A stretch of DNA of 10,401 nucleotides, taken from Candidatus Latescibacterota bacterium. Its GTDB lineage: Bacteria; Latescibacterota; UBA2968; UBA8231. The stretch lies in contig JAGWBY010000142.1 of assembly GCA_021295675.1 (NCBI GenBank), forward strand, positions 1 to 10,401, read 5' to 3'. Within the stretch, counting starts at the first letter, position 1. Each line of letters opens with the position of its first letter. Under the pieces are notes generated by a model. It saw only the letters and a program-made list of their open reading frames with translations. It did no database searches and was not told the DNA's origin. Shown piece by piece: positions 1 through 9,906 of the stretch. A program made the translations under genes and the position numbers.

Positions 1-102
1 GCCGGCAGCGCAACAGGCGAGATAACTAAGGCCGACTACGCACGTAGTATATTTAGGTAGAACCGGTCTCGGACGCGGGTTCGATTCCCGCCGCCTCCAC
101 CA
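1..102 (+). ncRNA. ssrA: tmRNA (ssrA), 3' part
   Basis: This is the 3' end of transfer-messenger RNA, which rescues stalled ribosomes by acting as alanyl-tRNA and then as a short mRNA encoding a degradation tag. The tRNA-like T arm is clear: stem GCGGG (75-79) pairs with CCCGC (87-91) around the loop TTCGATT (80-86), followed by the acceptor strand and an encoded CCA ending at 102. The stretch GGACGCGGGTTCGATTCCCG is close to the 3' end of known bacterial ssrA genes. The tag-encoding and 5' parts lie upstream of the window. A tRNA alone is unlikely, because no D or anticodon arm sits at the expected distance and the sequence between 40 and 70 has the tmRNA character. The 3' end of ssrA is a well-known integration site for genomic islands. 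Confidence 0.88.
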
Positions 103-2417: not shown

Positions 2418-4691
2418 TTGCGCTACGACTCGGCGCGCGACTGGCGGCAGTGGGAGTTGCCCCTGGGCGCAGTGGACCTGACGGCGCTAGGCGTGATCCA
2501 GCCCACCCGTATCGAAAGACTGACCGACGCCGTGCGCGACTCGGACGCCTTCGACGGCGGCATCCGCAACGCCGGCTCCAACCTCAACCTGGCCCGCTTC
2601 GCCATCGATGGCGACCCGGCAACCGGCTGGGCACCCGACCCGGAAGCCAAACCCGAGAATTGGTTTCTCGAAGTCGACCTCGGCCGCGCCGTCTCGGCCA
2701 ATAGCGTGACCCTGGTCTTCGACGCGGAGGCCCCGCCCTTCGAACTCTTCGATCTGCTGATTTCGACCGGCGAACCCGAAACCGACGTTATCGCCGCCCC
2801 TATCGAGGGCTCGCTCGTCTACCGCACCAAGGAGCGCTTCAAGGAAAACACCCGCCACCGGGTGACCTACGAAATAGCGGAAATCGACGCCGAGCCGCTG
2901 CAGTTTATCCGCTTCGAGCCCTTGCTGATGGTGCCCGACGCCCGCCTAGTCGAGGTCGAAGTCGAAACCATCGGCGACAATATCGCTCTCGGTCTGATGG
3001 AACGGGGAGGTGCCGTCGACATCAATACCAACCTCGCCCAGATTGACCAGCAACCCCTCGGCAAGGCCAGAGCCCTTTTCGATGGCGACCTCTACTTAGG
3101 CTGGAGAGCCGGCAGCGCCGGGCGAGGCCTCAATGATATTCTCTCGCACATGGTCCTCGACCTAGGCGCTGTCTACTGGGTCGACCAGATCCGGGTCATC
3201 GGCGGCGTGGTTGAGAAGTCGTTTTTTGGCGGTGCCATCGTCAGCAGACACATTGTCTCCCGGCGGCGCTGGGGCTTTCGCTTCTACGAGTTGATGACCT
3301 CCGATGGCTCGCTCTCACCCGACGGCTCGCGCCTGTGGACCAAGCACTTCTCGGGCGAAGCGCCCGTCCACCAGCGGTCCAAAGGGCTGGTAGACCACCA
3401 TTTCGACCTGCAGCCTACCCGCTACATGCGCATCTTCTGGAAATTCTGGGACACTAGCTGCTTCTCCTTCCAGAGCCTGGGCGTGAGGGGCGGCAGCTTC
3501 AGAGTGCCCGGCTGCAGCGCCGGCGGAGCCACCGACGAGATCCAGATCTTCGGCCAGGGCTTCCCCCAAGACGTCGGTTTCCAATCGCCGCTGATCGACC
3601 TGGGCGAGGGCAAGAATCTCAACTCGATAGAATGGAGCGGCGAACAACCGCCGGGCACTCTCATCGAAATCCGCACCCGCACCGGCAACGACGTCACCGA
3701 GATCTTGACCTACCACGACAAGAACGGCAAGGAAGTCACCGAGAGGAAGTACAACAAGCTAATCCCCAGCTTCAAAGGCCCCATCGACACCTCCCGCGTC
3801 GCCGGCGGCGATTGGAGCGTCTGGAGCCGGATCTACAGCTTCTCCGGCGAGGACTTTCTCTCGCCCTCGCCGCGCCGCTACATGGAAATCGACGTGCGCA
3901 TGGTCTCCGACTCGCCCGACCGCGCTGCTACCCTCGACTTCCTCGCCGCCAACTTCACCGAGCCGCTGGCCGCCCGCGTGCTCGGCGAGATCTTTCCCCA
4001 GCAGGTCGAACCGGGCATACTGACCGAATTCACCTATTACTTAAAACCCGAAAACACCAGCGGCTTCGACCGCCTCGCCGTCGAGTCGGTCGCACCGGTG
4101 CATTTTATGAGCGTTTCGCGTAATGGCACCGACCTCGACGTGCAGATGGACACCACCGCCAATGGCTTTCTGATCCACTTGCCCAATCGCATCCGCACCG
4201 ACCAGCTCATCGAGTTGAAGTTCGAATCTTCCGTATTCCGGCAATCGACCCGCTTCGACGTCTTTCTCCAGGACGGCCGTCAGGACGCTAGCGTGCGCCA
4301 GCGCGTCGACCCCGGTAATGCCTCCGAACTAATCGAGAGCAACACCAACGTCGTCAGCCTGCCCGTCAGCCCCAAGCTCTTCGCCAACGTGGTGCTCTCT
4401 TCGCCGGTGCTCACCCCCAATGGCGACGGGGTCAACGACGCATTGCAGCTCTCGGTTGACCTAATCAACGTGCTCGAATCGCGCCCCTTGCGGTTGCGCC
4501 TCTACGATCTGGCCGGTCGCCCCGTCTACGACCGCGGCGAGAACGGCCGCGCCGACCAGCATCATTTCACCTGGGACGGTCGCGACAGCGCGGGGTCTCG
4601 CGTCGCGCCGGGCCTCTATATTCTCGAGATTTTGGTCGAAGGCGATGCCGGCGACGAGAAGGCGCAGGAAATCATTTCGGTGGTCTACTAG
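2418..4691 (+). CDS. Secreted or surface protein with discoidin-like and CHU_C/FlgD-like domains, N-terminus probably missing
   Basis: This 757-codon frame has a beta-sandwich architecture typical of extracellular carbohydrate-binding proteins. Residues ~55-120 resemble an F5/8 type C (discoidin) domain (FAIDGDPATGW, LEVDLGRAVSANSVTLVF). A second copy spans ~200-380 (ALFDGDLYLGW, MVLDLGAVYWVDQIRVIGG, TRYMRIFWKFWDT, ATDEIQIFGQG). The middle (400-520) holds IEIRTRTGNDV, SFKGPIDTSR and GEDFLSPSPRRY, a block of unknown function. The C-terminus (~663-757) is a CHU_C/FlgD-like Ig domain: LTPNGDGVNDAL, LYDLAGRPVYDR, FTWDGRDSAG and APGLYILEI. Such domains commonly end exported surface proteins. The TTG at 2418 has no good ribosome binding site, and neither signal peptide nor ATG is seen in the open frame back to 2310. 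The 5' end has therefore probably been lost by fusion to the hsdM remnant, and expression in its present form is doubtful. No enzyme motif was recognised. Confidence 0.72.
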   Translation: MRYDSARDWRQWELPLGAVDLTALGVIQPTRIERLTDAVRDSDAFDGGIRNAGSNLNLARFAIDGDPATGWAPDPEAKPENWFLEVDLGRAVSANSVTLVFDAEAPPFELFDLLISTGEPETDVIAAPIEGSLVYRTKERFKENTRHRVTYEIAEIDAEPLQFIRFEPLLMVPDARLVEVEVETIGDNIALGLMERGGAVDINTNLAQIDQQPLGKARALFDGDLYLGWRAGSAGRGLNDILSHMVLDLGAVYWVDQIRVIGGVVEKSFFGGAIVSRHIVSRRRWGFRFYELMTSDGSLSPDGSRLWTKHFSGEAPVHQRSKGLVDHHFDLQPTRYMRIFWKFWDTSCFSFQSLGVRGGSFRVPGCSAGGATDEIQIFGQGFPQDVGFQSPLIDLGEGKNLNSIEWSGEQPPGTLIEIRTRTGNDVTEILTYHDKNGKEVTERKYNKLIPSFKGPIDTSRVAGGDWSVWSRIYSFSGEDFLSPSPRRYMEIDVRMVSDSPDRAATLDFLAANFTEPLAARVLGEIFPQQVEPGILTEFTYYLKPENTSGFDRLAVESVAPVHFMSVSRNGTDLDVQMDTTANGFLIHLPNRIRTDQLIELKFESSVFRQSTRFDVFLQDGRQDASVRQRVDPGNASELIESNTNVVSLPVSPKLFANVVLSSPVLTPNGDGVNDALQLSVDLINVLESRPLRLRLYDLAGRPVYDRGENGRADQHHFTWDGRDSAGSRVAPGLYILEILVEGDAGDEKAQEIISVVY

Positions 4692-6280: not shown

Positions 6281-6404
6281 GGTGCTACAGCACCGACAAC
6301 AGCGATATCAACCATGCGCGTGAACATTATCAAGTAGTAGCCGAAGTCGTGAGGCTTCGGAGAAAATAACTATTTGCTCGTAAGCAAAATCCTGTGAAGG
6401 CAGG
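6281..6404. other. Cluster of short hairpins in the convergent intergenic gap
   Basis: The 193-nt gap between the convergent sulfatase and helicase genes holds four short perfect hairpins: GGTGC/GCACC with loop TACA (6281-6294), CCGAAG/CTTCGG (6341-6360), TTTGCT/AGCAAA with loop CGTA (6373-6388) and CCTG/CAGG (6391-6404). None is followed by a T run on either strand, so they are poor intrinsic terminators. They may be a structured RNA remnant or coincidental. I found no coding sequence I could support in the gap. Confidence 0.3.
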
Positions 6405-6472
6405 TCGAGACATGAAAGCCAGCGCAAGAACTGACGCGGTCGCCGCTCCATCGCGCTCGACGGCAAGATGGC

Positions 6473-9400
6473 TCAATTACTTATGGCGACACCGGGCGTT
6501 TTAGTAGAACCTCTTAGTAAGCACGTCCGGCGAGAGGTTTCGTCAAGCAATCGGTCCTGTGTTTTCCTGATTTCTTCAATCACTGAGTCAATTTCCTCGT
6601 GGCATCGCCACGCCGGTATTCGCAGGATTGTCCAACCGAGATTGACTAGGACGCGGTCTCGTGTAATATCCTGGCGCCGTTGTTGGCTTCTGGCGTCAAG
6701 GTGCTGATCGCCGTCAACCTCGATGTTCAGCTTGATTCCTTGTTCCAGCAGCGCAAAGTCCAGCTCGTACCCCTCTACCTCGAGCTTGCCATAGGGTAAG
6801 AGATCTTGGAGCTGCATGGCGTCGAGCAGGATTTTCTCAGCCGTGCTGTCCGTGCGGAACTCGGCGGACAGCGGACCAGCGCCCTCATTCCGGGCGACCT
6901 CATCGCGCAGATAGACCCGCAAGGAGGCCAAGGTTGGACTCCCCAAATCTCCCATGAGCGGGTGACCGAGAACGATTAGTGCTCGACGGGCGCGGCTGAC
7001 AGCCACGTTGAGGAGGTTTCTCTCTTTTTCTATCCAACGGACACCGCTCTTAGACATGCCGGGCGAGAGCACGGAGGAAAGAATAACCGCATCACGCTCG
7101 TCTCCCTGCAGACGATGTGCGGTTCCACTTACAAAATCGATGTCGTCCAAAAAATCCTGGCCGAATTGCGTTTTGGCTATCTGATCGATGAGCCGCGCCT
7201 GCGCAGTAAACGGAGTTACCACGCCGACAGTCTTGTAACCGGATTCGATTGCGCCACGAAGTTGTTTCACTGTCTCCTCTGCCTCTGTCAGGTTTAGCCA
7301 GCTTCCTGTGGCGGGCCGTACTGCCGCGCCGTCGACATCGCACCAGTAGATGGCACGATCACGCTGGGATGTATCGGAGACATCCGTCAACACGGTGAGT
7401 TCTCCCTTGTAGAACGTTTTATTGAACCAACGGGCGATGTGTGGGTGGCAGCGGTAGTGCTCGTTGAGAAGAATTGGGGTTTGGGGTTTTGCCGCAAACT
7501 CAAACGCGGAGTAAGCCGAACCGTCTTTGTGGTGGATGCCGCGGTCGCGTAGATCGTCGTTGTCGAACCCCGTCTGCGTGGCGATCTCCTGTAAGAGTCC
7601 ATCGCTAAGGGAAACGATCGGGTTCAGTTGATATGGATCCCCCACGATCGCCAAGCGTTTTGCGCGGTAGGCCAATGGCAATACGGCTGCGAGGCTGCAC
7701 TGGCTAGCCTCATCGACGATCACGAGGTCAAACAATCCTGATTCCAAGGGAAAGTTGGAATGCGCTGTTAATGCCGTACACGCCCAGCCTCGTAAGTAGC
7801 GAAACGAATTGCCAATTGCTCTTCTAAAGCGGTCGCCGTTGGCGGGGATTGTGCCGAAGACTGCTAGACGGTTAGCACCAGAGGAGATTCGCGTCGCCGC
7901 CTCCACGCGGATTGCGTAGAGGCTTGCATCTGCCCATTTCTGGTCTGCTTCGCGCACAGTGGTCGTTGGGTCGCCCACTGCGGACTTCAGTTGTTGACGC
8001 TCAACTCGTCCAATTTCCAATTGGGAGGTCAGCTTTGCTATACGCTGATCAATTTGAGCCCAGATGACGAGTTGATCCAATGAAGCGGTTTCAAGGCAAC
8101 CGAGTCGCCTACGAAAGCGTCGCGCGCGGAAACGAGGAAACAACCACGTCCGCAACAACCCTCTGGCCCGTTGCTCTATTTCATAGGAACTAATGGACAG
8201 TTCAGGAGGGCTCGCGTTAGTCCAGAGCACTCGCGCTGCCTCTTTCAAGGCTCGTCCGAGTTTCTCTTGCTCCTCTACAAGCTGCAACAGTTTCACGTCC
8301 AGTTCGTCCAGCCTCGCCAATTTTTCCATTAGCTCGGTGCGCTCAGTGGTGACTCGCTTCAATTGGGCGCGCGTTGCGGCTTGGTTGCCGTGGTGAGCTG
8401 CCGCCTGAGCCGACGCCGCGGTAATGCGATCCGGGACCTGCTCGCGCACATCGCGATTGCCGGTGCGGACTAACAAGCCGCCAATCACGTCCTTTTCCGC
8501 ACGCTCGACGGCCACGTCAACTGCACCATTGTTGGTCGAAGTCACCAAAACCTTGTCGCCGTCCAGCCACGCGTTCGCAACCGCGTTGACTAGGAGTTGC
8601 GTCTTGCCGGTCCCAGGTGGGCCGGTCACGACCGTCAGGGGATTTCTGCGGAGACATTCGAGTGTTTCTTCCTGTGATTGGTTGCATACAAGTGGAGCGG
8701 CGAGAGGTTCGGACGGAGGTCGCTTATTTTCCTTCTGCGCGAAACCGTTGCGGAGCAGATGGGCCGCAGCCGTAGTTGACCAGTCTTTTCGGGTCTGTAG
8801 TTGTCGCAGTTCTTCGCGCAAGGTGCTGGTATATCCAGACCACTCGGCCACGACCGAGATCGCGGCGTTGTAGATGCCTTGTTTGCGACCGATGTTCGAT
8901 TGGAGGATTCTCGCGTTGAGGGGCGATAATATCTGGAGTCCGAGCAGGTCGGCCGTTCGTCCGGCGAGGACACCAAAAGCGTCGGCATCTCCGAACGGCA
9001 AGCCGCGACTTAGCAGGTCGCTAATGTCTTCGGTGATCGAAGGGTCAAAGATACCGCTTGCCGTGATGGCCAAATTGAACTCTGGCTCCATAGTAGCGTG
9101 AAGTTCCCACTGGTTATCGGAGCCTTGTTCCGGTTCGACTTGGATAGCGAAAAGAGGAGCAACCTTGGGTGTGTGATCGCGGTCGGTTACGACGATGGTC
9201 GGCCAGCCGTAAATGATCGACCCGGCGCGAGACTTCAGTTTATTGGGGAGTTCTCCGGGTGCTGGCGTCGAGTCGCTCTGCCCGACCACCAGTTTCTCTT
9301 CCCCACAGTGCAAGAACCACAGAGAGTTCCTTTTGACGTATGGGACCAGTGATTTCGCTGCTTCCGCTTCAATGCACCGTTGCGCATAATGGCATAGTTG

Positions 9401-9673
9401 CTGCCAGGGAATTTGCCCGCTGTTGGCAGTCGGCTTTGAAGAGCTTGAAGCGCTAGGATTTGCGTTCGTTGCCGTGTTCCGCGAATCGCCCGCTATGCTA
9501 TCCGATGCGACTTGGGCCGCGGAGCCCTCGCTACCTGCGCAGTCAATACACCAGACTTTTTTCGACGATGGTGACCAGTAGGCGCGCTGGCCCGCCTCTA
9601 GCCTCATTGCACACAATTGGCAGCGTCCGGCGTACTTCAGCGCGATAAAACGTAGCTCTTTGGGGCGTTTCAT
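6473..9673 (-). CDS. Zn-finger / SF1 helicase / PD-(D/E)XK nuclease fusion protein
   Basis: This 1066-residue protein is predicted to translocate on or unwind nucleic acid and to cut DNA. A four-Cys zinc-finger-like motif lies at residues 18-45 (CQLC...CIDC). After a Ser/Asn-rich linker (50-88) comes an uncharacterised domain (~89-320). The UPF1-like superfamily 1 core follows: N331-Q334 as a Q-motif-like stretch, Walker A GPPGTGKT (351-358), motif Ia VLVTSTNNGAVD (375-386), a long helical insert (~427-480), Walker B VIVDEASQ (651-658), motif III GDPYQL (678-683), motif IV-like LNEHYRCHP (736-744), motif V GTAHRLQGDERD (850-861) and motif VI VAVSRARRAL (890-899). The C-terminus (~943-1022) resembles DUF559/MTES_1575-type nucleases of the Vsr-like group: E946, D972, then IEVDGDQH (984-991) and WTILRIP. 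All key residues appear present. The ATG at 9673 fits family-like N-termini. It stands alone and convergent to the sulfatase. An anti-phage role is an inference from architecture. Confidence 0.86.
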   Translation of the reverse strand: MKRPKELRFIALKYAGRCQLCAMRLEAGQRAYWSPSSKKVWCIDCAGSEGSAAQVASDSIAGDSRNTATNANPSASSSSKPTANSGQIPWQQLCHYAQRCIEAEAAKSLVPYVKRNSLWFLHCGEEKLVVGQSDSTPAPGELPNKLKSRAGSIIYGWPTIVVTDRDHTPKVAPLFAIQVEPEQGSDNQWELHATMEPEFNLAITASGIFDPSITEDISDLLSRGLPFGDADAFGVLAGRTADLLGLQILSPLNARILQSNIGRKQGIYNAAISVVAEWSGYTSTLREELRQLQTRKDWSTTAAAHLLRNGFAQKENKRPPSEPLAAPLVCNQSQEETLECLRRNPLTVVTGPPGTGKTQLLVNAVANAWLDGDKVLVTSTNNGAVDVAVERAEKDVIGGLLVRTGNRDVREQVPDRITAASAQAAAHHGNQAATRAQLKRVTTERTELMEKLARLDELDVKLLQLVEEQEKLGRALKEAARVLWTNASPPELSISSYEIEQRARGLLRTWLFPRFRARRFRRRLGCLETASLDQLVIWAQIDQRIAKLTSQLEIGRVERQQLKSAVGDPTTTVREADQKWADASLYAIRVEAATRISSGANRLAVFGTIPANGDRFRRAIGNSFRYLRGWACTALTAHSNFPLESGLFDLVIVDEASQCSLAAVLPLAYRAKRLAIVGDPYQLNPIVSLSDGLLQEIATQTGFDNDDLRDRGIHHKDGSAYSAFEFAAKPQTPILLNEHYRCHPHIARWFNKTFYKGELTVLTDVSDTSQRDRAIYWCDVDGAAVRPATGSWLNLTEAEETVKQLRGAIESGYKTVGVVTPFTAQARLIDQIAKTQFGQDFLDDIDFVSGTAHRLQGDERDAVILSSVLSPGMSKSGVRWIEKERNLLNVAVSRARRALIVLGHPLMGDLGSPTLASLRVYLRDEVARNEGAGPLSAEFRTDSTAEKILLDAMQLQDLLPYGKLEVEGYELDFALLEQGIKLNIEVDGDQHLDARSQQRRQDITRDRVLVNLGWTILRIPAWRCHEEIDSVIEEIRKTQDRLLDETSRRTCLLRGSTKTPGVAISN

Positions 9674-9906
9674 CTTCGGTTTCGGCGTCGTCCGGCAGGT
9701 CGCGGCGCATTTCTTCCACCTATTTGACCGCGACTCGCTCTGGCCTCAAGCAATCTCTGATTGTCGATGCGATAGAACAGGGCTATTATAAAATTGATTG
9801 AACTGAATTAGTGCAAACCTTCAGCGCAAGGAACGCTCTAGATCGCGGTCAACCCACTAGCATCATCGGTTCACTAAATTGATTTTAAGCCAGCGAAAGA
9901 GAGACT
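9674..9906. other. Divergent intergenic region
   Basis: This gap separates the divergent helicase (minus) and racemase-family (plus) genes and must contain both start regions if each has its own promoter. A 9-nt direct repeat AAATTGATT occurs at 9791-9799 and 9876-9884, and an AT-rich patch (9783-9810) includes TATTATAAA. Spacing does not allow a confident -35/-10 call. I see no RNA gene, and no coding frame I can defend. Confidence 0.3.
9897..9903 (+). promoter_or_regulatory. Ribosome binding site of the racemase-family gene
   Basis: AAGAGAG lies just before the ATG at 9907, with a short 3-nt spacer. It is purine-rich and supports this ATG, although it is not a perfect Shine-Dalgarno match. 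Confidence 0.5.

Follow-up and report, generated by a model that had tools for sequence, protein, structure and literature searches.

We describe a mobile gene at positions 6473-9673 (reverse strand) of a 10,401-nucleotide (nt) stretch of DNA, hereafter the window, which spans positions 1-10,401 of contig JAGWBY010000142.1 in the Candidatus Latescibacterota bacterium assembly GCA_021295675.1. The encoded protein joins a zinc finger, a UPF1-like superfamily 1B (SF1B) helicase and a PD-(D/E)XK nuclease. Computational analysis reveals that its catalytic residues are conserved, that it is under purifying selection, that it has crossed phylum boundaries and that it was inserted as a single gene at several sites. 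The mobility is the new finding, and both mobility and architecture are well supported. With moderate confidence, we propose that the protein most likely serves in innate immunity, as an effector that targets invading nucleic acid (from phages, plasmids or other mobile DNA, or its transcripts), and that it is encoded by a single, horizontally spread gene.

Transfer between phyla and single-gene insertion

The gene is patchily distributed. Close copies, defined as matches at E<=1e-100, occur in 7 of the 64 genomes of the phylum. They are found in 2 of 145 sampled genomes of the class of a Binatia copy, in 3 of 200 sampled genomes of the class of an Acidobacteria copy (one being a fragment) and in 4 of 16 genomes of the class to which a Gemmatimonadetes-titled genome belongs; these three class counts include the bait genomes. 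Within the window's genus the gene is present in 3 of 11 genomes, in two of which it is split over separate open reading frames (ORFs), of 682 and 530 amino acids (aa) in G001 and of 559 and 231 aa in G011.

The gene has moved between phyla. Between the Binatia and window copies identity reaches 84%, whereas RpoB of the Binatia genome is only 55% identical to that of G001. The corresponding values for helicase and RpoB are 76% versus 57% for Acidobacteria, 77% versus 69% for a genus of the same class and 88% versus 96% for the same-genus genome G003. In the tree, the window and G003 copies group with those from Binatia, Gammaproteobacteria and Acidobacteria (support 100/99), and the same-class copies form a separate group (100/100). 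At three of seven loci (window, L029 and L034) the G+C content differs by at least 0.05 from both flanks.

Empty sites delimit the insertion. In the four gene-bearing genomes of genus g9 (G029, G032, G034 and G035), the distance between the gene and ssrA is 1.3-5.4 kb. Among the seven g9 congeners without it, the flanks are joined in five, with 3-35 nt between them; G028 is diverged at the site, and the match in G040 ends at the contig end. In the window's genus, the junction between a sulfatase and an MR_MLE gene lacks the insertion in G001, G002, G004, G008, G010 and G011. Such pairs of empty and filled sites are natural controls. In the window, the relevant features are:

6432-9886, no strand assigned: approximate inserted unit, by comparison with the empty sites of six same-genus genomes; left edge uncertain, from 6283 to ~6432
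1-102, forward strand: 3' end of ssrA (tmRNA); copies of the helicase gene lie near ssrA in two genera of the class

The left edge probably lies to the right of 6431, because window positions 6329-6431 match at 82% a stretch of G006 that continues into the beginning of a thioesterase-like gene (type judged by eye). The broken copies of G001 and G011 sit before the AlbA gene, in G001 at 116 nt from ssrA. At the G011 junction, 31 nt from the start of MR_MLE remain between the flank of the helicase gene and the AlbA gene. The window-type position is therefore probably the older one, from which the gene later moved with ragged ends. Counting the window, 22 loci were compared; ssrA is found within 6.5 kb at six of them, and these six all belong to the window's class.

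That the inserted unit is essentially one gene is well supported. The g9 insertion of ~3.3 kb holds a coding sequence of 3.17 kb, leaving no space for a second gene except in antisense. On the sense strand, the g9 unit thus has no recombinase gene of its own such as a transposon or integron-like element would carry. A search for inverted repeats of at least 12 nt at the termini of the unit, made for two loci, found none. The empty sites thus bear out the preliminary description of the gene as stand-alone.

Both edges of the window unit lie by an imperfect direct repeat of 14 nt (13 of 14 matching; 6416-6429 and 9887-9900), which may be due to chance because the stretch holds 13 direct-repeat families. 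The sulfatase/MR_MLE gap may be a hotspot for single-gene insertions, as G007 carries another lone ORF there (L165 2877-3899, 340 aa), which matches nothing in Pfam or PADLOC. In two of the four g9 genomes a protein of ~1350 aa is encoded between the helicase gene and ssrA (L130 4407-8480 and L132 7198-11250); neither Pfam nor PADLOC gave a match for the L130 copy.

Architecture, conservation and selection

The ORF encodes 1066 aa with zero internal stops, confirming the single intact frame over 3.2 kb noted in the preliminary description. All parts lie on the reverse strand:

6473-9673, reverse strand: coding sequence of the zinc-finger/UPF1-like SF1B helicase/PD-(D/E)XK nuclease, 1066 aa (ORF, Pfam, homologues, alignment, model)
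9533-9652, reverse strand: four-Cys zinc finger, residues 8-47, with C18, C21, C42 and C45 (phrog_5664 match, alignments)
9416-9532, reverse strand: disordered, fast-evolving linker, residues 48-86 (predicted local distance difference test, pLDDT, <50; highest rate of nonsynonymous substitution, dN, in all five comparisons)
8714-9415, reverse strand: putative stalk helix and beta-barrel, residues 87-320, where UPF1-like helicases have their 1B/OB (oligonucleotide/oligosaccharide-binding) domain (structural alignment of the full model, starting at residue 87)
8474-8683, reverse strand: first part of RecA1, with Walker A at residues 351-358 (nt 8600-8623) and motif Ia (Pfam, alignment, motifs)
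7796-8473, reverse strand: helical coiled-coil arm between motifs Ia and II, residues 401-626 (model)
6959-7795, reverse strand: second part of RecA1 (DEASQ, nt 7700-7714) and RecA2 up to motif VI, residues 627-905 (Pfam, structure, motifs)
6539-6856, reverse strand: DUF559/MTES_1575-type PD-(D/E)XK nuclease, residues 940-1045, with E946, D972, E985, D987, H991 and R1018 (Pfam, alignment)
6473-6520, reverse strand: non-native C-terminal extension, 15 residues plus stop (family stop lost)

The final ~15 residues are non-native because a 6-nt deletion in the window removed the stop of the family.

The four-Cys finger, helicase motifs, helical insert and nuclease residues named in the preliminary description were all recovered by motifs, Pfam and the structural model. 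Profile phrog_5664 of PHROGs matches residues 2-54 (E 2.4e-8). In alignment A3 the finger is present in the rows of 17 relatives at 36-91% identity and missing from nine distant rows (19-23% identity), which begin near residue 89; it marks the close clade. The helicase is matched by Pfam AAA_11 at residues 331-603 (93.8 bits) and AAA_12 at 728-904 (99.5 bits; cut-offs 27). Motifs I, Ia, II, III, IV, V and VI are present together with the DEAxQ box, as befits a UPF1-like SF1B helicase. Walker A reads GPPGTGKT (351-358), motif Ia spans 374-392 and motif II is DEASQ (654-658); VGDPYQL (677-683), EHYRCHP (738-744), AHRLQGDE (852-859) and NVAVSRARRA (889-898) are further helicase motifs. In the model, the arm is built from helices at 431-483, 532-566 and 569-598.

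Residues 87-320 gave weak matches when used alone as a structural or profile query, but the full model aligns from residue 87. The region of residues 89-320, for which the preliminary description recognised no function, would thus take the place of the stalk/1B domain of the UPF1 family, although it remains a poor query by itself.

At the C-terminus, E946, D972 and E985-x-D987 are in place and the model displays the alpha-beta-beta-alpha-beta order of the PD-(D/E)XK fold. Pfam DUF559 matches residues 954-1037 with 33.7 bits, above its cut-off of 20.6, and MTES_1575 scores 37.1 bits, slightly below its cut-off of 38.2. The domain score, the invariant residues and the modelled element order agree in assigning the C-terminus to this fold. 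The nuclease region also matches structure 3hrl (E 1.4e-8) and the mobile-intron protein 3r3p in profile searches.

Among 7987 candidates scored in the protein database, 1389 are homologues at E<=1e-3; the best 120 of these share 66-99% identity with the window protein, and 118 of the 120 are nameless. The gene is therefore more than a chance ORF. Walker A, D654, E655 and Q658 of motif II, E946, D972, E985, D987, G988 and R1018 are invariant in an alignment of 47 rows, window protein included, with identities reaching down to 23%. Ten relatives were scanned, with hosts among Bacteroidales, Firmicutes, an actinobacterium and others. Nine end in a DUF559/MTES or DUF2726 domain, and L057 carries an N-terminal NERD domain instead. 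The broad helicase-nuclease kind is thus known already, and the finger-bearing, stand-alone and mobile clade is a variant of it.

The gene is under purifying selection. Of the six homologues compared, G003, L029, G029, L030 and G122 gave whole-gene ratios of nonsynonymous to synonymous substitution (dN/dS) of 0.18-0.24, and for L034 dS was saturated. dN is low in the RecA parts, and in four of the five comparisons that of the nuclease is smaller than the average of the gene. The linker, measured over residues 51-88, exceeds every other part in dN in each of the five; in three (L029, L030 and G029) its dN roughly matches or surpasses its dS.

The preliminary description saw a hint of selection in the frame having stayed open while neighbouring genes are broken. 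Selection is borne out by dN/dS, but the open frame itself is a weak argument: none of the six frameshifting deletions in the ~8.9 kb compared falls within the helicase gene (p ~0.07). These deletions of 17-25 nt, at window positions 690, 1041, 1768, 5051, 6210 and 10022, affect the AlbA/HATPase gene, the sulfatase and MR_MLE, and the aligned relatives (1 to 6 per site) lack them. They may be an assembly artefact or the result of an unusual deletion process.

Gene neighbourhoods and possible roles

Pfam assigned 8 of 10 recurrent or near neighbours to metabolic or housekeeping types (esterase twice, UPF0093, PhyH, BNR, nucleotidyl transferase, UDP-sugar dehydrogenase and epimerase) and gave no match for two; others were judged by eye. 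The preliminary description held that conserved housekeeping contexts would speak against a defence gene. Many neighbours are indeed metabolic, yet the gene is an insertion that some genomes have and others lack at these places, so the objection does not apply in the sense intended. The decayed type I restriction-modification cluster that it reported nearby did not withstand closer inspection, as only one fragment fits such a system:

1908-2309: truncated HsdM_N piece (Pfam)
349-1778: broken AlbA_2/HATPase gene, unrelated to type I restriction-modification (PADLOC, Pfam)

At a threshold of 1e-8, PADLOC returned 71 families among 130 neighbour proteins versus 31 among 130 controls, the first 25 families of each being listed. 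This enrichment is suggestive at most, as its sources were traced in few contexts. G003 has a type IIG restriction-methylase fragment and a HEC-01-like pair, and L030 has AbiEi and a second MkoA-like helicase. In L038, a PLD-like protein with a topoisomerase-type zinc ribbon (3694-4368; MkoB-like, E 4.2e-9; PLDc_2) lies directly downstream of the split helicase copy of an Acidimicrobiia metagenome-assembled genome. The AlbA gene of G011 has weak matches to pAgo profiles, and no member protein could be traced for the neighbour matches to RT_UG29 and MzaA.

Of the explanations considered, defence is the likeliest and a plausible one. The zinc finger and the stalk/1B barrel would hold a stretch or an end of single-stranded nucleic acid. 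The SF1B motor would then move 5' to 3' along the bound strand, the polarity of the SF1B family. The coiled-coil arm may relay or hold back this movement, or form a dimer, and the tethered nuclease would cleave the strand when the motor meets an abnormal substrate. We infer the polarity from the family, and the substrate (single-stranded DNA or RNA), the trigger, the gating and the defence role are likewise inferred. Much more tentatively, and with low confidence, the clade may be a new stand-alone immune family that does alone what the helicase module of the multi-protein CoCoNuT systems does with partners. It would travel as a bare one-gene cassette between phyla, among many apparent sponge symbionts and near ssrA in two genera, and provide a surveillance-and-destroy motor acting on invading single-stranded nucleic acid, possibly RNA. 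Robbins et al. (PMC8163846) describe sponge symbionts in general as enriched in CRISPR and restriction genes, with many sponge-enriched genes laterally transferred from one microbial taxon to another, and the window gene may be a concrete case of this.

Several observations weigh against mobile defence. PADLOC's nearest profiles are defence helicases, but this is weak evidence because all ten scanned relatives give the same generic UPF1-like matches. Defence-like neighbours were traced in just 3 of 13 contexts; adding the HsdM fragment of the window, which is too small to have entered the scan, would make four. The broken copies in G001 and G011 indicate that the gene is dispensable; that of G001 (L109 8785-12353) consists of two ORFs, and its arm region (window 7992-8326) matches twice, pointing to an internal duplication. 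For two Gemmatimonadota genomes, identity does not establish transfer, since the helicase is barely more alike than RpoB (64 versus 62% and 65 versus 62%). Close copies were also not found on annotated phages, plasmids or IMG/VR contigs: the 9 phage and 1068 plasmid records matched are all below 60% identity, with none covering 80%, and the 7 IMG/VR loci reach 23-27%.

The nearest folds (UPF1, IGHMBP2 and Dna2), the metabolic neighbours and the synteny kept within lineages would also suit an accessory enzyme of nucleic-acid maintenance, working in DNA repair or RNA surveillance in the way of Dna2 or UPF1, which is of benefit in a niche and was transferred incidentally. This is unlikely, and core maintenance is contradicted by the rarity of the gene among relatives, its insertion beside empty sites and the tolerance of broken copies. 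The partnerless insertions at different sites within one genus, the 14-nt repeat and the match to 3r3p recall a selfish, homing-endonuclease-like gene whose Vsr-like domain cuts the empty site and which is copied in by helicase-aided repair. Such a gene is quite improbable here: there are several target sites instead of one, the junctions look imprecise, no shared ends between lineages are visible by eye, and the repeat may be fortuitous.

We consider it very unlikely that the protein is a CnuH-like module of a CoCoNuT-type system with McrB/McrC partners elsewhere in the genome. The order of parts is that of type III-B CnuH, and 8 of 20 gene-bearing genomes have McrC at another place. In the other 12, however, McrC was not found, it never lies on the helicase contig, and the N-terminus is a zinc finger. 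Loss of the native stop, the broken neighbours and the broken copies of two congeners could indicate a decaying passenger without present function in the window. The intact catalytic residues, the dN/dS values and a full-length cluster 99% identical to the window protein (P0001, 7 member sequences in the protein database) make this highly improbable.

Comparison with known systems

In structure comparison the closest folds are those named above, with which the protein shares the SF1B core, probably including the stalk and 1B position. It differs from all three in its enlarged arm, C-terminal nuclease and zinc finger, and in being bacterial and mobile. The nuclease of Dna2 is N-terminal. Hna combines helicase and nuclease families other than those of the window protein, and no search made returned homology between the two. 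It is also an ATPase-nuclease protein (PMC13381803) and a helpful model for an ATP-gated nuclease in abortive infection.

Mokosh MkoC is the best PADLOC helicase match (E 2.5e-66), its best stretch being confined to the helicase (645-905). PLD domains are present in both Mokosh I and Mokosh II (PMC10952713, Table 1), whereas the window protein has a DUF559-type nuclease and no Pfam PLD; one relative, L038, has a separate PLD protein beside it. We rejected Mokosh membership. The Hhe, ProA and PDC-S37 profiles (PADLOC/NCBIfam) cover both helicase and C-terminal nuclease, to residues 1035-1046, but comprise 1550-1911 positions, and the window protein scores 58-112 bits. Hhe was rejected at 75.9 bits versus an NCBIfam cut-off of 2000 and with no DUF4011 in Pfam, and ProA at 111.7 bits versus 1500.

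The closest described architecture is that of CnuH of CoCoNuT type III-B. According to PMC11090510, CnuH has a UPF1-like motor, an OB domain, a large helical insertion that follows Walker A and, at its C-terminus, a Vsr domain. The window protein shares the UPF1-like helicase, probably the OB domain, the coiled-coil insertion and the fused Vsr-like PD-(D/E)XK nuclease. In the same source, CnuH has an N-terminal winged helix-turn-helix (wHTH) and sits with CnuB (McrB GTPase), CnuC and CnuA; the window protein has the four-Cys finger instead and no such partners nearby. Membership in type III-B was rejected, as the wHTH is missing and no McrB-type GTPase (CnuB) or McrC (CnuC) was found next to the gene. 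For McrB, a crude motif scan that covered 22 loci picked out a single ORF (L034 6293-7366), which on inspection by eye was not taken for McrB. If the gene serves in defence, it would be among the simplest helicase-nuclease immune systems, a single partnerless gene that moves between phyla, with the UPF1-like motor and Vsr nuclease of CoCoNuT III-B seen apart from their McrBC partners.
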